Source: Thiobacillus denitrificans DSM 12475 (GTDB lineage Bacteria; Pseudomonadota; Gammaproteobacteria; Burkholderiales; Thiobacillaceae). Taken from it: DNA of 64,000 bases. The translations under genes were made by a program, and so were the position numbers. The notes below the pieces were generated by a model. That model searched no databases. It was not told where the DNA came from and was given only the letters and a program-made list of their open reading frames with translations. Where the stretch lies: contig NZ_AQWL01000011.1 in NCBI RefSeq assembly GCF_000376425.1, forward strand, positions 1 to 64,000. Direction: 5' to 3'. This document shows positions 1 through 9,420 of this stretch, in pieces. The first letter of the stretch is position 1. Each line of letters opens with the position of its first letter.

Positions 1-52
1 ACATCAAGGCTTTCTGGCTTTCCGTGTAATAGATCCGAGGTCTTCGTTTCAT
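1..52 (-). CDS. IS30-family transposase, N-terminal 17 residues (partial)
   Basis: Reading leftward from the ATG at 52-50 gives MKRRPRIYYTESQKALM, which I recognise as the N-terminus of IS30-family transposases, just before their helix-turn-helix. A gaaggagtg stretch upstream serves as the ribosome site. Nothing catalytic is visible because the DDE domain lies beyond the window edge. The family assignment rests on this short stretch plus the adjoining terminal-repeat-like sequence. Confidence 0.6.
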   Translation of the reverse strand, partial: MKRRPRIYYTESQKALM

Positions 53-113
53 CTGCAACACTCCTTCTGCTTACGCAGTCTCTAGTGTGTTGCATCCACC
101 GGTTGAATCCGCC
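1..113 (-). mobile_element. IS30-family insertion sequence, 5' end only
   Basis: The minus strand from about 113 holds a terminal sequence reading ggcggattcaaccggtggat, then a short leader, then the start of an IS30-type transposase at 52. It lies within the reading frame of a gene that starts at 203, so it interrupts the ubiquitin-like operon. The outer boundary is placed at about 113, where the host frame stops making sense; it could shift by a few bases. The rest of the IS lies outside the window. Confidence 0.65.
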
Positions 114-203
114 AGCCCTTTCATGACTTTCAGGGTGAGATTCTAGGTAGGTGGTGACGGCATCATGTTGCGAGCCGAGCAATGTGATTCTTGCCCCAGT
201 CAT
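114..203 (-). pseudogene. 5' fragment of a probable JAB/E1-type ubiquitin-pathway gene, cut by IS30
   Basis: An ATG at 203-201 overlaps the stop codon of the E2-like gene as ATGA, the tight coupling expected of an operon partner. About 30 codons follow (starting MTGARITLLGSQHDAV and ending near HPESHERA) before the IS30 end begins at about 113. The pattern 'xITLxGxQHxxVxxYL...ERA' resembles the start of the JAB-domain or JAB-E1 fusion proteins that normally follow Prok-E2_E genes; this is inference from a short segment and from context. The frame stays open through the IS end to the window edge, so a non-native fusion peptide could be made. The catalytic parts are lost from this copy unless they persist beyond the IS. 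Confidence 0.5.
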
Positions 204-607
204 TTCTTGGCGTCCGGATTACCGAGAGCCCACACGATGCGGCCCAGGATCGTGACGACATTGTCCTTGCCGGGCTTCCATATGACTGGCGCATGATTCC
301 AGTGCCGCGACCAGCGGCAGAACTCCTTGCCGTCAAAGGTTCTGTTGTCGCCGCCGCCGGGCCGGTTCATTGCGGGGATGGGCTTGCCATCATTGCGCGT
401 CAGGTGGGGAAACGTCCAGAACATATCGATACCACCTTGGTTGTAGTTCTGCGGGATGATTACAAGAACGTCACAGATCTTCTCGTGGTAGAGCCCTTCG
501 GGCAGAAGAAAGTTACGCAGCACCAGAAAGCGCTGCGCTTCATCTTCTACGTAGTCGAGGCCGCATTCCAGGATTTCCGCATAGTCGGTGTCAAGAAGCA
601 GCGGCAT
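200..607 (-). CDS. Prokaryotic E2-like ubiquitin-conjugating protein (Prok-E2_E type)
   Basis: This 135-residue protein resembles Prok-E2_E, the E2/UBC-fold proteins found in bacterial operons with ubiquitin-like proteins, E1-like ThiF enzymes and JAB peptidases. Visible features are an LPEGLY segment (35-40), a strand leading to VLVIIPQNY (47-55), and DMFWTFP (61-67). A GKEFCRWSRHW segment has Cys97, followed by WKPG (110-113). In E2 enzymes the catalytic Cys sits in a G-x-C context ahead of a W-x-P motif, so Cys97 is the best candidate for the thioester. The gene starts 6 bp after the ubiquitin-like gene, with a ggtgat ribosome site, and overlaps the truncated next gene by 4 bp. The presumed role is to transfer an E1-activated ubiquitin-like protein to a target. 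Confidence 0.8.
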   Translation of the reverse strand: MPLLLDTDYAEILECGLDYVEDEAQRFLVLRNFLLPEGLYHEKICDVLVIIPQNYNQGGIDMFWTFPHLTRNDGKPIPAMNRPGGGDNRTFDGKEFCRWSRHWNHAPVIWKPGKDNVVTILGRIVWALGNPDAKK

Positions 608-613
608 ATCGGA

Positions 614-859
614 TCACCCCGCCTGCGAGCCGACCGGTTGCGTCCAGAACCGCTCTGGTCCCTTCTGCTTGGTCAGATCAACGACTGTATCGTCCTTGAT
701 TTCTTGGTCAGGATGGCCGGGAACCTTATGAAAAATTTGGACGTCATCCGGAAGCGACGCAAGAACACGAATCTGCCTGCCGGTGATGGTGTCCTCATCC
801 CAGTCGTAACGCTCGTTGTCAATGAAGAGTTCGGGTCGGTTGGATTTTTCAATACTCAT
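614..859 (-). CDS. Ubiquitin-like (multiubiquitin-family) protein, single domain
   Basis: This 81-residue protein has the layout of a beta-grasp ubiquitin-like domain. The segment ELFIDNERYDWDEDTITGRQI matches the first hairpin and helix entry of the Multi_ubiq family, and a HPDQEIKDDTVVDL-type strand completes the fold. Family members often carry two or more repeats; this one has a single domain. It ends ...GSQAG, so the chain terminates at a glycine with no extension, compatible with direct C-terminal activation by an E1. It lies between the DUF2188 gene (27 bp upstream) and the E2-like gene (6 bp downstream). It is probably the modifier protein of this conjugation system; its targets are unknown. 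Confidence 0.75.
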   Translation of the reverse strand: MSIEKSNRPELFIDNERYDWDEDTITGRQIRVLASLPDDVQIFHKVPGHPDQEIKDDTVVDLTKQKGPERFWTQPVGSQAG

Positions 860-886
860 GATGCTGGCCTTCTTTACTTTAAGTGT

Positions 887-1114
887 TCAGCCTTTCGGCG
901 GGAAAGGGTCGTGCCCGTGGCTGTCGCGGCTCTGGATCTTGCCGTCACGCCCGTGAACGATGAGCTCGGTTCCTTGGTTTCGGCTGATTTCCCGAGCCCG
1001 CCCGACGGCCTGACTCTTTGTGGAGAGGATCTCGGTCGCCCTGCTGGATCCCGCCCCCGTCACCGCCCAATCCTTTCCGCTAGGGACCACATGCTGATTA
1101 CGCTTAGTTGCCAT
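887..1114 (-). CDS. DUF2188-family small protein
   Basis: This 75-residue basic protein has the DUF2188 pattern: a HVVPSGKDWAV strand, a short helix (TKSQAVGRAREISRNQG) and a closing strand ELIVHGRDGKIQSRDSHGHDP. Its start is supported by a caggag ribosome site about 10 bp upstream. It is the first gene of the leftward operon and is divergent from the sigma-like gene. DUF2188 proteins have no established biochemical function. Here the small lysine-rich protein could be a regulator or a substrate of the ubiquitin-like system, but that is only suggested by position. Confidence 0.75.
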   Translation of the reverse strand: MATKRNQHVVPSGKDWAVTGAGSSRATEILSTKSQAVGRAREISRNQGTELIVHGRDGKIQSRDSHGHDPFPPKG

Positions 1115-1248
1115 CTTTTATACTCCTGTGAAAACGAGCAATGCACGCTCAATTACCTAAGGCGCTGTCCTCCAGAAATCCGGACAAGAAATTTATGTCC
1201 GGGCATGCGGAACTCCCCGCCTTAGAAATAACGACAGGAGGATTCGCG

Positions 1249-1848
1249 TTGGAAAGCAACTACGGAGCTCCGGCGACGCTGGAGCAAATCGAGCAGGCCA
1301 TCGTCGGCTTGAGCGATATCGAGTGGATCCGGCTTCGCAAGATGGCCTGGGGCCACCTGTGGGGAACCCGCTTTGAGGGTCCGGATGAACTCATCAACGA
1401 AACTATCGAGCGGATGATCGCCGGCAGGAGGACTTGGAACATCGGGATGGCCTTCGTGCCTTGGATGGATTCGGCGATGAAAAGCGTCGCCAATAACCTG
1501 CGCACCCTCAAGCGGCAGCCGAAGGTGGCTCTCGCCGGAGACTTGGTGGATAGCGGCGACGACCCACCGGAAGAGGCCCTCGATATTCTCAGCGAGGACG
1601 GAGAAACGCCCTTGGATGCCCTCCTGACGCAAGAGGCTCGCGCCATGGCCGAAAAGGACCTCGCCAAGATCGAAGGGCGGTTCAAGGACGACCAAGAGGT
1701 CGGATGGATTCTTATGGGGCTTGAGGATGGGCTGGGGGCGAGCGATATCCAAGCCATGGGCGAGATGACCAAGACACAATACGAGACGGCGAGGAAACGG
1801 CTGCGCCGAGAGCGCGAGCGGCTGTTCCCTGGCGGGAGAAAATCATGA
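1249..1848 (+). CDS. ECF sigma-factor-like protein
   Basis: I chose the TTG at 1,249 because a perfect aggagg lies 7 bp upstream; the alternative ATG at 1,141 has no ribosome site. The 199-residue product looks like a small sigma-70 family protein. Its segment GPDELINETIERMIAGRR through WMDSAMKSVANNLRTLKR resembles region 2. The C-terminal EVGWILMGLEDGLGASDIQ plus KTQYETARKRLRRERERL resembles the region 4 helix-turn-helix. An acidic linker (DLVDSGDDPPEEALDILSED) joins them. The next gene overlaps by 4 bp. It probably directs or modulates transcription of the adjacent cargo. Divergence from canonical ECF sigma factors is substantial, so promoter recognition is unproven. Confidence 0.65.
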   Translation: MESNYGAPATLEQIEQAIVGLSDIEWIRLRKMAWGHLWGTRFEGPDELINETIERMIAGRRTWNIGMAFVPWMDSAMKSVANNLRTLKRQPKVALAGDLVDSGDDPPEEALDILSEDGETPLDALLTQEARAMAEKDLAKIEGRFKDDQEVGWILMGLEDGLGASDIQAMGEMTKTQYETARKRLRRERERLFPGGRKS

Positions 1849-2276
1849 AAGAGGCGAAAGGAATGGGGGCAGAAACCCAAATGGCTGCCCTCGAGCGGCT
1901 CATTTCCGAGGATCTACTGGCGATGAGCGACGAGGATCTGCTCAAGGAGGCGATCGAGGACGGTATCGATCCCGCCGCAAAAGCTTCCGAGTTGCGGTCC
2001 TCCGCATTGGCGAAGATCAACCAAGCCAAGCGCGAGAAGCTGACAGCAGCTCGCCGAGGCTATGACGCCTCTCTCCGGGAATCCCCGGTTGCCAAGGCAA
2101 GGCCCACGCTTGAGGAGATCAAGCGCCAGATCCAGGCTCTGATCCGTGGCGGGGCCTCTAATGGGCTGTCGCTGGCGTTCCGCAAAGGGGAAACGATGTC
2201 GGATGCCGACTGGGAAAGCCTTTGGGATGACATGGTGGAAAGCGGCCTGATCGGAGACTCGAGGAAGGATGACTGA
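1845..2276 (+). CDS. Hypothetical helical protein between sigma-like and ImmA/IrrE genes
   Basis: This 143-residue protein is charged, with no signal peptide or membrane segment. It is predicted helical, with an acidic N-terminal part (EDLLAMSDEDLLKEAIEDGI), a basic middle (KINQAKREKLTAARRGY) and a C-terminal segment rich in Trp and acidic residues (MSDADWESLWDDMVESGLIG). It overlaps the sigma-like gene by 4 bp (ATGA) and the peptidase gene by 8 bp, so the three are probably translated together. I do not recognise the family. By analogy with ImmA/IrrE pairs, it could be the regulator (for example an anti-sigma factor) that the peptidase cleaves; that is a hypothesis. Confidence 0.6.
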   Translation: MKEAKGMGAETQMAALERLISEDLLAMSDEDLLKEAIEDGIDPAAKASELRSSALAKINQAKREKLTAARRGYDASLRESPVAKARPTLEEIKRQIQALIRGGASNGLSLAFRKGETMSDADWESLWDDMVESGLIGDSRKDD

Positions 2277-3030
2277 TCATCGAGCGCTTTCGAAAGGCGA
2301 ACTGATCCTCAAGAGATTCGGGATAGATAGCCCGGAGCAGATCGATCTAGAGGCGATCGCCTTTGACCTCGGTGCGAAGGTTCGCTACCGGAAGATCGAT
2401 GGGAGTGAGGCCCGCATCGTCGGGAATGGGGCCTCCGCGATCATCACGGTCAATGAGAACCACAAACCGACTCGGCAGCGCTTCTCCATCGCCCATGAGC
2501 TCGGGCATTGGGTGGAGCGGCATGGGAAGGGGGGATTCGTCTGCACCAAGGAGGACATCTCGCCCCAAAACGACGCAGCCAAGAGCGCGGAAGCCATCGC
2601 GAACGGCTTCGCTTCTCAGCTGATCCTGCCCTCGTATCTGTTTGACTCCATCGCAGCGGGGATGCCAATAACCTTGGATTCGGCAGACAAGATCCGAATG
2701 GATTTCAAGGCCGGGCTCACGACCACGGCGCTCAAGCTGGTCAAGGGGACGGGAAAAACCGCCGCGATCGTCTGCCATGGGCTGCAGGGGCGGCAGTGGT
2801 TCGCGCTGAGCCCCGGATGGCCCGAATATCTGAGGCTCGCCGCGGAGCTCAACTACGAGACGGAAGCCTTCGAACTTCTCTATGCCGCCGACAAGCGCGG
2901 TAAGACGACGCTTCGCCAAGAGGCCGCATCACGATGGATTTCCGGCAGGCAAGGGCAGGAGCTGAAGGTGCGCTCCCAGTCCGTGAAGCTCGCAGATGGT
3001 GTTGTGCTTAGCGTGATCGCCGTGACTTAA
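2269..3030 (+). CDS. ImmA/IrrE-family metallo-endopeptidase
   Basis: This 253-residue protein carries the zinc-peptidase motif HELGH at residues 76-80 within RFSIAHELGHWVERH, the signature of the ImmA/IrrE (M78-type) family. A further helix, AEAIANGFASQLILPSYLF, has the family's usual 'ExxAxxFAxxLLMP' pattern and supplies the third ligand region. It starts with a gaggaagg ribosome site and overlaps the previous gene by 8 bp. Relatives cleave a transcription regulator in response to DNA damage or other stress (IrrE/DdrO, ImmA/ImmR). The target here may be one of its two operon partners, or a component of the divergent ubiquitin-like operon. Confidence 0.85.
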   Translation: MTDHRALSKGELILKRFGIDSPEQIDLEAIAFDLGAKVRYRKIDGSEARIVGNGASAIITVNENHKPTRQRFSIAHELGHWVERHGKGGFVCTKEDISPQNDAAKSAEAIANGFASQLILPSYLFDSIAAGMPITLDSADKIRMDFKAGLTTTALKLVKGTGKTAAIVCHGLQGRQWFALSPGWPEYLRLAAELNYETEAFELLYAADKRGKTTLRQEAASRWISGRQGQELKVRSQSVKLADGVVLSVIAVT

Positions 3031-3074
3031 CGTCTTTTCATACAGCAATATACGGACCGAGCAGGGAGGAAATC

Positions 3075-3170
3075 GTGCAAAAACAACAAAATAGAGGGCC
3101 CTTTAGGCATGCCTCCTCGCTAGTAACATACGGCCCCCTGCGTCCGTGTATTAACTGTTGGGGCTCTTAG
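3075..3170 (+). CDS. Possible 31-aa small ORF with strong ribosome site
   Basis: A GTG at 3,075 is preceded by gggaggaaatc, an unusually good ribosome site, and opens a 31-codon frame ending at 3,170. The peptide begins MQKQQNRGPFRHASS and ends INCWGS. It lies in the 150-bp gap between the peptidase gene and the HEPN gene, an otherwise AT-richer stretch. No family is recognisable, and the ribosome site could equally be a relic. Listed as a candidate only. Confidence 0.2.
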   Translation: MQKQQNRGPFRHASSLVTYGPLRPCINCWGS

Positions 3171-3181
3171 GCTGAGCGCAT

Positions 3182-4132
3182 ATGCAAGAAAAGCTACTTC
3201 TACTCACATCGAAACAAGTTGCCCGTCGATTGACCGAGGTATTTGATTTCGTATGGCCCACTGCCACAGCAATCTGGAATCTCCGGTGGCAAGTAGCCGG
3301 CTATGTCTCCGCGTCTCCTGCTGCCACGGTGAGTGAATTGGATGGACGCTTTGTTGCTGGAAGCGGTATTCGAGGAGCCAATTTGCGCCGTTCCTGCATT
3401 GACTCTTCTTGGGAAGATCAACAGCAGGAGTTTGCTCGCTTTCTACTGTTCGAGTTTTGCTCCCTATATGAAGCTTGGTGCGAAGGCACGCTCAATGAAC
3501 TCGGTGCTGCCGCATCGCTATCGAAACATCTGCAATTTCCAACAACATTTACAAATGGCGCCCCTACAAAGGGTCTCCGCCATGCTGTCAATTCGATAGT
3601 GCAAGGTGGTTCACCGATCATGTCTGGGTCGATCTATCCTGCTATCACCAAGAACAAAAAGAACTCGCCGCTGCATATCGAGCAACTCTTGGTCTGCTAC
3701 CGCTATTTCAAAGAGGCAAGAAACTCGCTCGTCCACGCCGGTGGTAGCACATCAACCCAATTTGTTTCGGCAGAAGCCGCATATAACCAGCTTACGCCCG
3801 TGCAAGTGGGGCTCAAGGAAGTGCCGGTTATCAATGGGCATACGGCGGGCAGTCCGATCGAAATCAGCCTTCGCGGTGTTGTCGGCTTCGGGGATATTGT
3901 CCTTCGCCTTGTATCAACGCTTGATGCCGAGTTCTCTAAGTCCCCAGGGGCTGAGCACGCTTTCTTGCAGCGCTGGAGGGCGTGTCACGGCGGCTCTGCC
4001 GTTCAGGTATCTGCCAACCCAAACTTATGTCGTGAGCGAATCAAGCGGCTTGTGCGGAAATTGGATCTTCCGACTCCGGCGGTTACGGCTCAGTTTGAAA
4101 CTTGGCTCCGAAACAACCAATGCATCGTCTGA
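3182..4132 (+). CDS. HEPN-domain protein (RiboL-PSP-HEPN-like)
   Basis: This 316-residue soluble protein has one recognisable hallmark, EARNSLVHAGG, giving Arg180-Asn-x3-His185. This matches the R-x4-6-H motif of HEPN nucleases and their relatives. It is preceded by long helices (QQEFARFLLFEFCSLYEAWCEG and HIEQLLVCYRYFKE) typical of the HEPN bundle. HEPN proteins frequently act as RNases in toxin-antitoxin and anti-phage systems. No nucleotidyltransferase (MNT) or other antitoxin gene is adjacent, so its partner is unclear. GC content is visibly lower than in the core genes, fitting horizontal cargo. It converges on the P-loop gene 11 bp away. Function beyond the HEPN assignment is unknown. 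Confidence 0.6.
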   Translation: MQEKLLLLTSKQVARRLTEVFDFVWPTATAIWNLRWQVAGYVSASPAATVSELDGRFVAGSGIRGANLRRSCIDSSWEDQQQEFARFLLFEFCSLYEAWCEGTLNELGAAASLSKHLQFPTTFTNGAPTKGLRHAVNSIVQGGSPIMSGSIYPAITKNKKNSPLHIEQLLVCYRYFKEARNSLVHAGGSTSTQFVSAEAAYNQLTPVQVGLKEVPVINGHTAGSPIEISLRGVVGFGDIVLRLVSTLDAEFSKSPGAEHAFLQRWRACHGGSAVQVSANPNLCRERIKRLVRKLDLPTPAVTAQFETWLRNNQCIV

Positions 4133-4143
4133 TTCGGTCATTT

Positions 4144-5070
4144 TTAGCTCCTATCTTTCTTGCCCACGATAGGGTTGACATTACCTTTCGCCGCGACCTT
4201 CTTCTTAAGTTGCCGAAGGAGCGCGTCGGTTGGTACCCAACTTGCCTTCATGCCGTGCAGTACGGCCGAAGAAACACCGTGAAGGGATTTCCCGTGTCCC
4301 GCTGCCTCGACAACTTCGTAATCAAACCCAAGATCGACGTAGGGCTTGATATCCTCCACCCCGGAAAAGACGTTGGTGACAACCACATGAGCGCCCGCAG
4401 CAAGGGTATCCTTGGTCTGTTGCAAGCACCATGCGTGGGCCTCGGGCAGCTTCTTCTCGACAAAGGCGTACTCGCCATCAACCTCAAAGAACATATCCGC
4501 CTCGAAGTGCTCATAGCCCTTTTTCTTGTAGCCTTGAGCGCGCGTGGTCTTGCCACTGCCCGGCAGCCCGCGAATCAGTACCAAACGCGGTAACGGCTGG
4601 GCTCCTTTGGAAGGCAGGCTGGCTACCTTGTGCAGTTCCCTCAATTCCTTGCGGGATTGCGCAACCACTTTTTCCAATTGCTTGGCGTTTTCTTCGGCGG
4701 TCATGCGCGCTGTGAAGTGCGCCGCGATCTGCAACTGCAGGAGCTTTTTCTGCGCTTTCTCCTGAGCGAGATCGGCGCGCAGGTTCTGAATCAGTTGGGT
4801 ATAGGTAGTCGGATGCGTTGTCTTGCCGCCCTTGGAAAGACGGATCGCTTCCCGCACCTTGGGATAGCGACACTCATGCATTGCAATCAGAGTGCGCGAG
4901 TGACCGGCTTCCAGCGATACATTTACAGCATTAACCGCGAGCTTGCCCTTTTTCTTGAGCAAGGCTTTCAGGGTCTTCTGGGTGGGCTTGCCATCTACAA
5001 GACGCTGCAGTGCGTCCATAAAGGCCTGCTCGATGGGATCAAGAACTTCAGTGGACTCGGGCAAGGGCAT
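4144..5070 (-). CDS. Coiled-coil / P-loop protein of the recombinase module
   Basis: This 308-residue protein is the last gene of the four-gene recombinase operon and overlaps the previous one by 23 bp. The N-terminal part (about 15-80) is helical and lysine-rich (KPTQKTLKALLKKKGKLAV, with GHSRTLI) and looks like a DNA-binding domain. Residues 95-150 form a coiled coil. A kinase-like P-loop follows: RLVLIRGLPGSGKTTRA, Walker A at 168-176, as in AAA_33 / polynucleotide-kinase-like ATPases. Small helical third or fourth genes accompany the recombinases in Tn554-type elements (TnpC), but a P-loop fusion is unusual. The C-terminal half could instead be a cargo function, such as phosphorylation of a nucleic acid or protein. 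Confidence 0.6.
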   Translation of the reverse strand: MPLPESTEVLDPIEQAFMDALQRLVDGKPTQKTLKALLKKKGKLAVNAVNVSLEAGHSRTLIAMHECRYPKVREAIRLSKGGKTTHPTTYTQLIQNLRADLAQEKAQKKLLQLQIAAHFTARMTAEENAKQLEKVVAQSRKELRELHKVASLPSKGAQPLPRLVLIRGLPGSGKTTRAQGYKKKGYEHFEADMFFEVDGEYAFVEKKLPEAHAWCLQQTKDTLAAGAHVVVTNVFSGVEDIKPYVDLGFDYEVVEAAGHGKSLHGVSSAVLHGMKASWVPTDALLRQLKKKVAAKGNVNPIVGKKDRS

Positions 5071-7276
5071 GATCTTCCTTCAGCGTCATCTTCACCTGCC
5101 GCTCCAACGCCTTCATGTCTGCGCCCACTTTCTTGAGTAACTTGCCCGCCTGCTGTGCGCGGTCCAGAAAGACGCGGAACTGGCCTCCACTGGTCTCTCC
5201 CCGTTTCTCTGCCTGCTTGTAGGTGATCCAGTTCTGTAGATAGCGCTCCTGCCAGAAAGGAATGTGACGGTAATCTATGGCGAAATTGTCACAACCGGCA
5301 CATAGGCTTGACTCCCGCGTGGCGTAGTTGGGTTTCAGGCGTAGACCAACGGGTGTGTGTGCCTCGTCATGGCAGCGCATGGTTGAAGTGTGAATTGGTA
5401 GACAGGTGGCGTAGGGACTAAAGAAGATCGTTAGGCCCTGCTCATCGCAGAACTCGACGGTACGCTGCCAGGCTTCACTTATGGGTAGGTTTTTGAAGTC
5501 CTCGGTGAGGCCGCGGGTGGCTCGCTCTATCTGTTCGCCCATTTTTCCTGCGATGGGAGAACGGCCCATTATGGTCTCGAAGACCATAAGGTTACGCTGC
5601 TGTTCGGCCACTTGATTCATGCTCGTCATGAGCAGCGGATTGGAGCCAATATAACCCGTATCTGTCATAGCCAGCGAAAGGTGGTGGAACTGCAACTGAA
5701 TAGCTGGCGCTAGGGCAGGATCGACGGCAAAGACATACTGTGCCCAGCTCTTGCGCAGCATGTGCGTAGTAAAGATTGTCCCTTTGGACTCCCGCCACGC
5801 CACTAGATCGTTGTCCCTGATCTTATGCTTGCTTTCGTCGGGTAGACCGGACAGATCCACCCAGCGCTCGAAGAAACGCTTCATTCCCCCTGTCATTGTT
5901 TGACTAGTCATAGCAGACTGGCTGGTCGTCTTGAGACGAAATGTTTCTCCACCGGTATCCATTATGAACAGGCGGCTAGTATTGGCCCAAGGCCGCCAGG
6001 GCTCATATAAGCGATTCAGCAGGCGCAGTGCGCGCACCGCCAGCGGCTCCTCGGTCGAGTCTTTGGGTCGCAGACCAAGAACCCAGTCGACCTCTCTCGG
6101 GAGCCCCTTCTCAGTCTTGGCCAGTTCAGTCCGGATCAAGTAGACGTCATACAGACCCGTAGCCGAGCTCTCGATGCGTACGCCCAACGGCAGATCAGTT
6201 ACCGGGTCTAGCCCAGCCTTGATACCCATCAATTCTGAGATCCGCATTCCGGTCGTGCCCTGGATGTTGATCGCACAAGCCTCTCTTACCGCCTCAAACA
6301 ACTGCCGAACGCGCGCCGTCGGCGTCATGCCCCTGCTGGCTTCGTAGTTTTCATTGAGGGGGGGATGCCAGGGATGCGTGTCACCAGGCAGCGTGCTGAA
6401 CTGGAATGAATCCAGAAACTTCTTTGCACGTCTTTGGCGCGGAGCTGGCCTTTTCCCGGGCTTTCGACGGCGGATATGCTCTTTCCCCTTCATTACCACC
6501 ACAACCTCTATGCAGTCGGAATCGGCGATTGGGTCACGCACAACATCAAGCAGCTGGATCACATCTTCAGCGGGTGTGTTGAGGAACCAAGCGGCCTTGT
6601 TGAACATCGGAATAGCGACTTCATCCGGCAACGGCTGGATCCATCCTCGTGTCTTCGTGGCGATCTGCTTCGCGTGAGAGCCTGCGCTTTTGGTGCCGAA
6701 CGGATTGACCGGCATCGAGGGGACACCCCACAAGGTGAGGACACGTCTCTCTGTCCAAAGACACGTCAGTATTTTTAGGCCAAGCGCGGCTTGACTGCCA
6801 GAAATCCCCTCGCTTTCCTGATGATCCAACAAGATGCGGGGTAGGTCTTCTAGGTAATGACTTACCACGTCTGGCGTCAATTCGTGAGGGTGATGGTAGC
6901 CGTGGTTAGACATCCACGAAAGCAGCCACTGGAATCCACGCCTGAAGCTTCCGGTCGACGCGACCGCTGGACCGAAACAGTCGCTAGGCGCCTTAAGTAG
7001 CACTGCCATCAGCTTGCGAGCCCACAGGAGGCGCCTAGAATTCTGTGGATCGGTAAGGCGGGTACCGTCAAACAGTTCGATGCCCCAGTTGAGTCTTCCA
7101 ATACTCTCACGCTGCCCCGCCGTGGTAGGTTTCCGTTCCCAGGTATGGTCGAGGAACGTGCTGAACTCTGTTACGCGGAGCATATGCAACTCCTCGTCGG
7201 AATATTCCCACAGCGGCTTTAATTGATCGTCGGCCCGATTCGGGAGGTCTGTGAGGATTCTTGATTCGATAGTCAT
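5048..7276 (-). CDS. Large tyrosine recombinase (third recombinase of module)
   Basis: I use the ATG at 7,276 (MTIESRILTDL), preceded by tgaggtc; a TTG at 7,288 would add four residues. The product is 742 aa. A tyrosine-recombinase catalytic domain is visible in the middle: Arg in TTGMRISELMGI, H-x-x-R in FTTHMLRKSW, His in LQFHHLSLAMTDTGYIG, and the likely nucleophile Tyr in the same segment. A cysteine pair (SLCAGCDNF) near the C-terminus may bind metal. The protein is much longer than phage integrases (about 330-400 aa), as is usual for the large partner recombinases of Tn554-like elements. It follows the degenerate recombinase by 8 bp. Confidence 0.75.
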   Translation of the reverse strand: MTIESRILTDLPNRADDQLKPLWEYSDEELHMLRVTEFSTFLDHTWERKPTTAGQRESIGRLNWGIELFDGTRLTDPQNSRRLLWARKLMAVLLKAPSDCFGPAVASTGSFRRGFQWLLSWMSNHGYHHPHELTPDVVSHYLEDLPRILLDHQESEGISGSQAALGLKILTCLWTERRVLTLWGVPSMPVNPFGTKSAGSHAKQIATKTRGWIQPLPDEVAIPMFNKAAWFLNTPAEDVIQLLDVVRDPIADSDCIEVVVVMKGKEHIRRRKPGKRPAPRQRRAKKFLDSFQFSTLPGDTHPWHPPLNENYEASRGMTPTARVRQLFEAVREACAINIQGTTGMRISELMGIKAGLDPVTDLPLGVRIESSATGLYDVYLIRTELAKTEKGLPREVDWVLGLRPKDSTEEPLAVRALRLLNRLYEPWRPWANTSRLFIMDTGGETFRLKTTSQSAMTSQTMTGGMKRFFERWVDLSGLPDESKHKIRDNDLVAWRESKGTIFTTHMLRKSWAQYVFAVDPALAPAIQLQFHHLSLAMTDTGYIGSNPLLMTSMNQVAEQQRNLMVFETIMGRSPIAGKMGEQIERATRGLTEDFKNLPISEAWQRTVEFCDEQGLTIFFSPYATCLPIHTSTMRCHDEAHTPVGLRLKPNYATRESSLCAGCDNFAIDYRHIPFWQERYLQNWITYKQAEKRGETSGGQFRVFLDRAQQAGKLLKKVGADMKALERQVKMTLKEDHALARVH

Positions 7277-7284
7277 GCTCGACC

Positions 7285-9420
7285 TCAACCTACGTTGGGA
7301 AGCTCAACGCGGAAGCGCCGCGATTCGACCAGCACAGACTCGGGAACCAGCACTATCAGCGCCTTGAGGTCTGCAGCCACCGGCGCCCATCGCTCCATCC
7401 ACATGGGCGCAGTCATTGTAGAAACGCTGCGATGGATTGCCCTCTGCAAAGCCTCCCAGTACATGACCGCCGTTGGATTGAAAGGTTTTACTGCCACGAG
7501 CGGACAGGCAGGACATTCCCCGTAGGCACGACACAACCGCCCCTTATTTTGGTTAGGCCGTGGCGAATCGAAGGGGTCGAGGCAATCGAAACCGGGGCTC
7601 GCGCTCGATTTGTCCGAGCCGATCGGCGTTGTGCGCGGATCGATGCGGCCGCCGGTATCGATCCAGCGCTCACGCGTAAGCAGTATCTCGCCGGTACCCT
7701 CCTGCAGTAGCCGGCGCATCAGACCTGATGTGTAGTGAGTCCACGTTGTGATGCGCCCTTCATGATTGCCTACTTGCCGTGAAGCCTCCAAGCTGCCCCG
7801 ATTGACCAGTTGCACATAATCGAGCAGCGTAAATCGGATTTGCTTTAGGCTGAATTTCGGCAGGTCGTGGTCTTTGCAGAAATTTCGGAGGGAACGACAC
7901 CAGACGTTATCTCCCGAAGGCGAGTCCCTAGTTCTTCCATATCCTTTGGGTCCACTGTAATTTTTCGAAGCAACGTATATGAACAGCCTGTCTTGGTGAT
8001 CAGGCAGCAGTTCCGGCCGGATTCGGTCTGTCAAGTCACGCAGTAGATCGAGAACCAAGCTCAGGCTTGCCTGGGATGGATCGCTCGCGGTCGGATCAAG
8101 CAGACGACGAAGCATACGGCTGGCACGAGGCTTAACGCCCTGGATAGACAATAGAGGTTCCTCTTCTTGATCGGGCGCTACCGATCCCTCGGTATAACCC
8201 TCGACCGCCTCTTCAGCGCAAATTCGCACCGCGGCGGTCCCAAGACGGTCGACCTCTCGGTCGACATTTTTCCATTCGAGTGACAACAGCGTATCCGGGT
8301 TAAACGCTGTAGCGAACCCGAGCAGCAAGACCAGTGGCACAAGGTCTCGGCTGGAGGCATACAGGTACCCCGTAATTTCGTCCCGCCCAAAGGCATATTT
8401 GACCGAATTCCCCATCGAGAGATTTGTTGATTGAATGCTGGCCAATTCCGGGACGACGCTGGGGAAGGCCGCATCGATCATAGCCAGACAGAGGGCGAGG
8501 TTTGCATCAGACGTAGACTCAGCGCTATCTCGTTCCTGCTTCCCAGGATTCGGCACCAACCGGTGCCCTTGCGCCCACAACCGGCGTCCCTGTGTTAGCA
8601 ACGTTTGACCACGCACCCAACGGTCACGCAGAGCGAAGGTTTCCTTTTCCGCAGCCTTCCAGATCGCCATAAGTATGGGCCACGAAATACCCTCCGTCGG
8701 CGTCGTTTTGCGGATAGCCCCGCGCGGACCAGCGGGAACACGTGCGGCGATGGATTCACCCGCTGAAATCGTCCTGAGGGTGGTCCTAACAGATTCGAGC
8801 GCTTTGCGGATGGTATTGGGGTGAAGCGGCTGTCCGTTTTTTTTGGTTCTCGTGTGCAGCCATTGATTGAAACCGGCAAGCACGTCCTCCTGAACTCGCG
8901 CCGGAGTTATGAAGCGTTGGTCAAAATTGGCCAAAAACACAAACCAATAACGTAATTGTTTTACCCGCTCCAGCCGAGTTCCGTTGGTCTTGCCGCGCCC
9001 CCATGCGAGGAATCCCTGGGCAAACAGATCCGTCAATCCCGGGAATTCAAGCAAAAGAGTGATATCAATACGATGTGGTTCACCACCGCCTTTTCTCGGG
9101 AAAATGGCCGTTAGTGTTGGATTGCCATTCTCATCGAAGCCTTCTTCCAGGCGGGTTGTGGGTAGTTCGGCGACACGCTGCTCATTTTCCGCGCGCACCT
9201 TAGACTGTTTCACCACCGACTCGGCGGATGATCGTTTCTTCCTGCTCCTCGGTTGTTGGAACTGCGGATCGAAGTCGTCGCGCTTTATGGTTATATCCTC
9301 AGGAGTCTGCGAATGTCGGTGATGCCGTGCTTCTCCCCAAAGAGTTCGACGTAGGCAAGATAGGTGTCCACGGTGACCTTGAGTGACTTGTGGCCTAACT
9401 TGACCTGCACGGTCTTCCAT
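7285..9420 (-). CDS. Large, partly degenerate tyrosine recombinase (second of module)
   Basis: The frame opens at an ATG at 9,420, but the first ~43 codons run inside the preceding recombinase gene and look like shadow sequence. The real start is probably near 9,290, where a ctgagga site precedes only weak codons (ATA, or GTG about 30 codons further in). The core fold is that of a tyrosine recombinase, with an N-terminal helical DNA-binding region (RLERVKQLRYWFVFLANF). The catalytic set is incomplete: the usual first Arg is replaced (LGFATAFNPDTLLSLEW) and H-x-x-R reads KQIR. The C-terminal Tyr region (TTWTHYTSGLM) remains. A Cys cluster (CRAYGECPACP) is near the end. It is likely a structural partner of the other two recombinases. 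Confidence 0.65.
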   Translation of the reverse strand: MEDRAGQVRPQVTQGHRGHLSCLRRTLWGEARHHRHSQTPEDITIKRDDFDPQFQQPRSRKKRSSAESVVKQSKVRAENEQRVAELPTTRLEEGFDENGNPTLTAIFPRKGGGEPHRIDITLLLEFPGLTDLFAQGFLAWGRGKTNGTRLERVKQLRYWFVFLANFDQRFITPARVQEDVLAGFNQWLHTRTKKNGQPLHPNTIRKALESVRTTLRTISAGESIAARVPAGPRGAIRKTTPTEGISWPILMAIWKAAEKETFALRDRWVRGQTLLTQGRRLWAQGHRLVPNPGKQERDSAESTSDANLALCLAMIDAAFPSVVPELASIQSTNLSMGNSVKYAFGRDEITGYLYASSRDLVPLVLLLGFATAFNPDTLLSLEWKNVDREVDRLGTAAVRICAEEAVEGYTEGSVAPDQEEEPLLSIQGVKPRASRMLRRLLDPTASDPSQASLSLVLDLLRDLTDRIRPELLPDHQDRLFIYVASKNYSGPKGYGRTRDSPSGDNVWCRSLRNFCKDHDLPKFSLKQIRFTLLDYVQLVNRGSLEASRQVGNHEGRITTWTHYTSGLMRRLLQEGTGEILLTRERWIDTGGRIDPRTTPIGSDKSSASPGFDCLDPFDSPRPNQNKGRLCRAYGECPACPLVAVKPFNPTAVMYWEALQRAIHRSVSTMTAPMWMERWAPVAADLKALIVLVPESVLVESRRFRVELPNVG

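Follow-up and report, generated by a model that had tools for sequence, protein, structure and literature searches.

A ubiquitination-like operon of Thiobacillus denitrificans, split by an insertion sequence, adjoins a sigma factor and protease trio that may act as a releasable switch

The left edge of the 64,000-nucleotide stretch of the Thiobacillus denitrificans DSM 12475 genome analyzed here (the window) carries what is probably a mobile immune-type cassette, in which a bacterial ubiquitination-like (Bub) operon, split by an insertion sequence (IS), is controlled by a divergent switch: a CapP-type protease would cut a 143-aa anti-sigma factor, and the freed sigma factor would read the promoters of both operons. 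The identities of the genes, the insertion, the order of the three control genes, and the paired divergent promoter-like motifs between the two operons are apparent from sequence comparisons. The first base of the window is also base 1 of contig C11, one of 38 contigs in the assembly of this 3.6-Mb genome.

Reading leftward, the Bub operon is led by a gene for a 75-aa DUF2188 protein (887..1114, minus strand; Pfam DUF2188, 4.7e-22; PADLOC PDC-S16, 2.8e-35), followed by genes for an 81-aa ubiquitin-like protein (Ubl) with one domain and the C-terminus -QPVGSQAG (614..859, minus strand; Multi_ubiq, 2.1e-10) and for a 135-aa BubB-like E2 protein (200..607, minus strand; Prok-E2_E, 6.6e-33; Citrobacter BubB, 5.9e-8). 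The Pfam scores of all three are well over the family cut-offs. The leftward DUF2188, Ubl, and E2 genes described by the first-pass annotation are thus real reading frames of the families named, and the profile check that it had suggested for 200-607 and 614-859 returned Prok-E2_E and Multi_ubiq. Among PDB sequences, the Ubl matches the multi-ubiquitin structure 9d59 (9.7e-9) and, weakly, BubA (0.23). The fourth gene, encoding a BubCD-like JAB-E1 fusion, is represented by its first 30 codons (113..203, minus strand), beyond which it is cut by the IS; the remainder lies at G000:C8:153530-154894 on the minus strand. When the JAB-E1 protein of an intact relative was compared with the T. denitrificans genome, the window accounted for its residues 1-32 and the right end of C8 for residues 28-482 (99% identity), so that the search for the missing E1/JAB part beyond the IS, proposed in the first pass, succeeded. 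The identity anticipated for the fourth gene was also correct, the uninterrupted relatives carrying a JAB-ThiF fusion in that place. JAB-E1 matches Citrobacter BubCD (1.4e-19); in three intact relatives, ThiF is far over its cut-off and Prok-JAB is below it (19.2-21.6 bits vs 25), and the JAMM residues and many ThiF residues are invariant across an alignment of 12 JAB-E1 proteins. Next to the JAB-E1 remainder on C8 is a gene for a DUF6527 protein nearly identical to that of the relative L015, where the match to DUF6527 is 1.4e-22. The complete leftward order is, therefore, DUF2188, Ubl, E2, JAB/E1, and DUF6527. The earlier account of the operon had the first four genes right and missed DUF6527 as well as the adjoining control operon.

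By gene content and homology this is a Bub operon. The E1 domain would activate the Ubl with ATP and hand it to the E2, whereupon the Ubl would be joined to target proteins, with the JAB domain removing it again. Assignment to Bil or type II CBASS conjugation systems was rejected: the E2 and Ubl of the window have no PADLOC matches at E 1, and the E1-E2 models match the L015 JAB-E1 over the E1 core only, with BilC matched weakly (0.0017). Cys97, which the first reading had taken for the catalytic residue of the E2, has to be abandoned in that role. Position 97 is Cys in just 4 of the 13 aligned E2 proteins, all from the window's own clade, and Gln in BubB, whereas Ser100 and His102 (in the motif WSRH) are invariant in all 13. 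A paper on the Bub mechanism reportedly discusses non-cysteine intermediates.

The same gene content is found in the Bub operons of Citrobacter (9ea4, 9ea5, 9ea8, 9eae, and 9eav), with BubA as the Ubl, BubB as the E2, and BubCD as the JAB-E1. Unlike these, the window operon has a single-domain Ubl, a leading DUF2188 gene, Cys97 in its E2, and a JAB-E1 gene cut by an IS. It also corresponds, by its Ubl, E2-like, JAB-E1, and metal-binding gene content, to operon type 6e as described in the available text of Iyer et al. 2006 (PMC1779556), which comprises a poly-Ubl, an RWD/E2-like protein, JAB fused to E1, and a metal-binding protein. The Ubl of the window is a solo one, a form noted in that text for one species, and the description of type 6e there includes no DUF2188; the same text calls this class of E2 inactive for want of the usual cysteine (PMC1779556). 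According to the portions of PMC13373217 available to us, type 6e operons are now named Bub.

The interruption of the operon can be traced to the base. Positions 1..112 (minus strand) are the end of an IS30-type element, which includes the transposase start (ATG at 52) and runs off the contig; the first 113-119 bases of the window are found again near five other contig ends of the same genome, less than 300 bases from each. In a longer copy of the element, the start of the transposase matches Pfam HTH_38 (E 2e-8), which we take to be a mark of IS30-type transposases, and the features of an IS30 element present are inverted ends, a short target duplication, and an HTH_38 transposase. The last 38 residues of the transposase gave no informative match, and the middle of the element is absent from the assembly. 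The bases ...GAAAGGGCT precede the element in the window, its other end on C8 is followed by GCTGCGG..., and across the insertion site the uninterrupted relative has ...GAAAGGGCTGCGG..., once. GCT thus stands on either side of the element and in a single copy in the relative, which indicates that the target was duplicated, as transposition would leave it. We conclude from these junctions that an IS30-type element was inserted in codon 30 of the JAB-E1 gene and that the operon is split over two contigs, in agreement with the first-pass proposal of an IS30 end cutting the fourth gene near that codon, for which the repeated end, HTH_38, and the GCT duplication all speak. Because the assembly breaks at the element, the order C8-IS-C11 is our reconstruction. 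In another Bub operon, on the Celeribacter plasmid pP73C (L144, 2430-3701), the E2 and E1 genes are separated by an IS256 transposase gene.

A scan of genome contigs yielded three uninterrupted loci. L015, from a gammaproteobacterial MAG and identical to a contig of the same-genus genome G080, has consecutive genes for DUF2188, Ubl, E2, JAB-E1 (482 aa), and DUF6527; L016 (Woeseiaceae) and L017 (Halothiobacillus) have the last four of these. The Ubl N-termini of the latter two (L016, 5706-5993; L017, 5656-5994) are rich in His and Asp and could bind metal. The block common to the window genome and G080 covers window positions 113-4134 (97%) along with 2 kb of C8 (98%), and the compared flanks outside the block gave no match between the two genomes. 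Since ~6 kb are shared while the compared flanks differ, the block behaves as a cassette, which supports the earlier view of the operon as accessory cargo. At its right end, the block includes a gene for a 316-aa protein with no assigned family (3182..4132, plus strand; no Pfam match at E 0.01). This protein contains RNSLVH, which we regard as reminiscent of a HEPN-type motif. Directly outside the block are genes for a P-loop (AAA_33) protein (4144-5070, minus strand) and for a 746-aa protein with a weak, sub-cut-off phage-integrase match (5048-7288, minus strand). On C8, past the DUF6527 gene (L023, 678-3789), there are genes that resemble, by eye, those for SRAP, a nuclease, UmuD, and UmuC, a DNA-damage theme. 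Relatives of the E2 were found in 4 of 118 genomes, the own genome included, in a family-wide search, and Prok-E2_E was matched in 8 of 369 genomes of a class sample, in seven of them over the cut-off. The E2 was matched in 91 of 72,556 plasmid records and in none of 50,697 phage records.

Within 1115-3030, divergent from the Bub genes, is an operon for an extracytoplasmic function (ECF)-like sigma factor, a 143-aa protein, and a CapP-type protease. The predicted sigma factor (1249..1848, plus strand; 199 aa) starts at a TTG after aggagg, picked by eye. The nine best PDB sequences matched by a profile of its family, built from 25 relatives, are ECF sigma factors, four of them below 0.001; the top two matches (9.6e-7 and 1.7e-6) cover both sigma regions, and the alignment with SigH extends over positions 13-185 of 193, with unrelated proteins also appearing in the weaker tail of the 23 PDB rows listed. 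Sigma70_r2 is matched in 11 of the 25 relatives, weakly (best 2.8e-4). Speaking against the proposed switch, the window's own sigma protein alone has no Pfam match. Its structural model is all helical, with helices grouped in residues 11-89 and 122-192, and of poor quality (mean pLDDT 52.9). By the family profile, the gene product is predicted to have ECF sigma regions 2 and 4. The third gene (2269..3030, plus strand) encodes a 253-aa CapP-like M78 (ImmA/IrrE) metallopeptidase with the motif HELGH (PADLOC capP, 3e-48; Peptidase_M78, 1.3e-14), and its family profile matches the PDB CapP 7t5t (3.9e-36).

Between these two, in every trio seen, lies the gene for the 143-aa protein (1845..2276, plus strand), the proposed anti-sigma factor and CapP substrate. 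Its A111 and R113, forming a conserved A-x-R, are invariant in all 21 aligned members (an alignment that does not include L015, L141, L145, L153, and L061), and the protein is otherwise conserved as a family only. It has no recognized anti-sigma fold and no convincing PDB match, which counts against the switch. It also differs from the helix-turn-helix repressor CapH: at E 1 it matches no Pfam family, helix-turn-helix families included, and its match to PADLOC capH is weak (6.8e-4 for the window member). The gene overlaps each of its two neighbors in 17 of 19 annotated loci per junction, which fits coupled expression of the trio.

In the 134-base intergenic region, TGTCCG-N16-CGCCTTAG occurs on both strands, back to back, with the inner ends 9 bases apart and a palindromic core, CGGACA-N9-TGTCCG. 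The predicted Bub operon promoter (1157..1186, minus strand) consists of TGTCCG (1186-1181), a 16-base spacer, and CGCCTTAG (1164-1157), and the predicted sigma operon promoter (1196..1225, plus strand) of TGTCCG (1196-1201), a 16-base spacer, and CGCCTTAG (1218-1225). The exact motif has two copies in the 3.6-Mb genome, both here; with one mismatch allowed, one further site appears genome-wide, the backward control then giving four. Relatives have pairs of the same layout with other -10 boxes, such as CGCATA, CAGCATGG, GAGCATA, and CGTATAGG, usually alike within a locus. Exact TGTCCG pairs were found in 12 of 22 loci, the window included (a count that leaves out L015, L141, L060, and L061), and the 280,525 bases of the same loci that lie beyond the tested regions contain none. 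Among 79 CapP-like controls without the trio, one has an exact pair, lacking a -10 box. Part of the tally tells against the switch: the pair is mismatched in six of the 22 loci, with the picks for L144 and L148 looking wrong, and absent in four (L050, L051, L140, and L152). L050 and L144 have boxes on both sides, far apart, and L140, L051, and L152 are without the motif.

The fuller motif, a pattern defined after these loci had been seen, matches one or both sides of 13 of 20 regions and both sides of seven, compared with 0.17 and 0.0 in shuffles and none in four controls; the 20 regions include the near copies L015/window, L048/L049, L050/L144, and L053/L054. Among five loci not used in defining the motif, L145, L146, and L153 have exact pairs, L151 has one side, and L061, whose sigma gene is broken, has no pair. 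Within 11 loci, the two -10 boxes agree at 71 of 88 bases vs 40.8 expected (p 5e-5), a test that omits the near copies L015, L144, L048, and L053; since L053 and L144 (as picked) have unlike -10 boxes, omitting both favors the reading as shared promoters. The pairless loci L050, L051, L052, L140, and L152 also fall outside this test. The spacers, too, are more alike than expected (68/176 vs 47.2, p 4.5e-4), so that part of the likeness of the -10 boxes could be due to descent or base composition. A motif-first scan of viral contigs gave no matches, another result against the switch. The corresponding genome scan, run with a pattern one base off in spacing that missed the window itself, gave 8/339 vs ~25 in the backward control, and these matches, therefore, look like chance.

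The trio is found beside operons of several types. A CapP search of plasmids matched 90 records, and in all 21 plasmid loci opened from the best 30 of these 90, the trio has the same gene order; two of the loci come from strains of the same Cereibacter species, and in one of these two the copy is broken. Paracoccus marcusii (pMARC5) and Cereibacter sphaeroides are among the hosts of intact copies. Of the nine remaining records of the best 30, five are from species already represented among the 21 and four match less well. Neighbors were tallied for 24 loci: the 21 plasmid loci, the window, L153, and L061, leaving out L015 (a near copy) and L060 (truncated by its contig end at the sigma gene). 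The neighboring operon is Bub in eight and a CBASS cyclase operon in five; another five have DUF2188 without Bub genes, with IS21 intervening in L048. The rest are one each: E1-E2-JAB with patatin, Pycsar, PADLOC 'beta', DUF3892, two small unassigned genes, and one unclassified. Bub remnants with a truncated JAB-E1 adjoin the trio in L061 (an IMG/VR contig, with a broken sigma gene) and L152 (an Aestuarium plasmid). On G421:C23, the trio (L153) has DUF2188, HNH, and recombinase genes as neighbors; the contig also carries, ~30 kb from the trio, a separate Bub operon (L044), without the motif upstream of the Ubl gene. In L043 (7309-7605), a DUF2188 gene whose product is 52% identical heads an operon adjoining genes for an HTH protein and a CapP-like protein, with a Bub-like E2/E1 pair nearby.

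The association has its limits. L150 and L151, opened from a sigma search, have a sigma relative without the 143-aa and CapP genes, which goes against the switch. Eight further Bub-like loci in the sampled genomes (L039-L046) all lack an adjacent trio, and some have HTH or M78 genes instead, so that the trio appears to be one regulator among several. By its sequence relatives, the trio is rare in the sampled genomes: the 143-aa family was found in at least 1 of 398 genomes of the phylum sample and at least 2 of 369 of the class sample, the own genome counted in both; these are lower bounds, because in many genomes scoring was limited to ~10-11 candidates. Viral contigs scanned with one CapP protein gave two loci with partial matches, and with another single CapP protein no match.

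Collectively, we infer the following protein steps. The 143-aa protein would keep the sigma factor inactive; CapP, switched on by single-stranded DNA after DNA damage, would cut the 143-aa protein, perhaps near the invariant A-x-R; and the freed sigma factor would read both promoters, raising its own level and that of the Bub operon. CapP and PprI are described as proteases activated by single-stranded DNA in the available text of PMC10904395 and PMC13373217. Such a switch would resemble CapH+CapP while releasing an activator rather than destroying a repressor. The palindromic form of CGGACA-N9-TGTCCG raises the alternative that the TGTCCG pair is an operator, with the 143-aa protein (as a diverged CapH) or the sigma-like protein as the repressor removed by CapP, as in CapH+CapP; the strong CapP match and the weak fit of the capH model to 7 of 12 relatives of the 143-aa protein (best 1.8e-4) are consistent with this. 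However, an operator needs no -10-like box, and many loci have one beyond each half at the same 16-base distance, the two sides tending to co-vary; moreover, the 143-aa protein is without the helix-turn-helix expected of a repressor, and the best profile matches of the sigma family are the nine ECF sigma factors noted above. We consider an operator unlikely.

As gene order is the sole link among the three genes, the protease might instead cut the sigma factor itself, or both proteins, and the trio might shut the operon off or limit a burst of expression. The constant position of the 143-aa gene between the other two in every trio, with its overlaps, and the invariance of A111 and R113, as might be expected of a substrate site, make this very improbable. 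The preferred switch, in which the sigma factor is freed from the 143-aa protein, is compatible with a further alternative that concerns the IS: the C8 part of JAB-E1 may be translated from a start inside the element, the Bub operon still working and the IS altering just its expression. C8 has an open frame of 461 codons beginning at a TTG inside the element, and the JAMM His-x-His and ThiF motifs are kept, but the frame lacks about the first 30 residues, including Glu28, which all 12 aligned relatives share, and is cut off from the predicted promoter of the operon. A working operon is, thus, quite unlikely, and the Bub operon has likely been inactivated by the IS, as the first-pass annotation had it. 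A defensive role of the operon is plausible; PMC13373217 states that protection against phage has yet to be shown for Bub operons.

The Bub operon type was already known; the form of CapP control that includes a sigma factor looks new. As in CapH+CapP, the CapP protease is encoded adjoining and divergent from the operon that it would control, but an ECF-like sigma factor and a 143-aa protein with no recognized HTH replace CapH in the window, and paired promoter-like motifs are added. CapK+CapS, which likewise adjoins Bub operons, is a kinase and a STAS-wHTH repressor, without a sigma factor or protease, in the available text of PMC13373217; genes resembling CapK and CapS by eye precede the Bub operon of L016. 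PprI-DdrO of Deinococcus likewise has an M78 protease activated by single-stranded DNA, and its substrate is a repressor. The DNA-damage regulators of immune operons covered in the available part of PMC13373217 are CapW, CapH+CapP, and CapK+CapS, all acting via repressors. Literature searched by title and abstract start contains no description of a sigma factor combined with CapP, CBASS, IrrE, or M78 control; the main Bub papers lie outside that coverage, and the trio may, therefore, be counted there under CapH+CapP, perhaps among the 219 Bub operons credited with CapW or CapH+CapP. Literature searches found no paper on DUF6527 and, by title, none on this subject among the seven on DUF2188.

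We lean towards a general form of this arrangement, in which a damage-triggered protease frees a private ECF sigma factor for mirror-image promoters, and the module is exchanged among Bub, CBASS, Pycsar, and other operons, its own promoter variants preventing cross-activation in one cell. If so, immune operons would be switched on by release of a sigma factor that has a promoter code of its own, unlike under the repressor-based regulators, and DNA damage would induce transcription starts at TGTCCG-N16-CGCCTTAG. The trio provides a handle for finding immune operons not yet recognized, and a small Bub operon with a single Ubl is brought within reach of testing.
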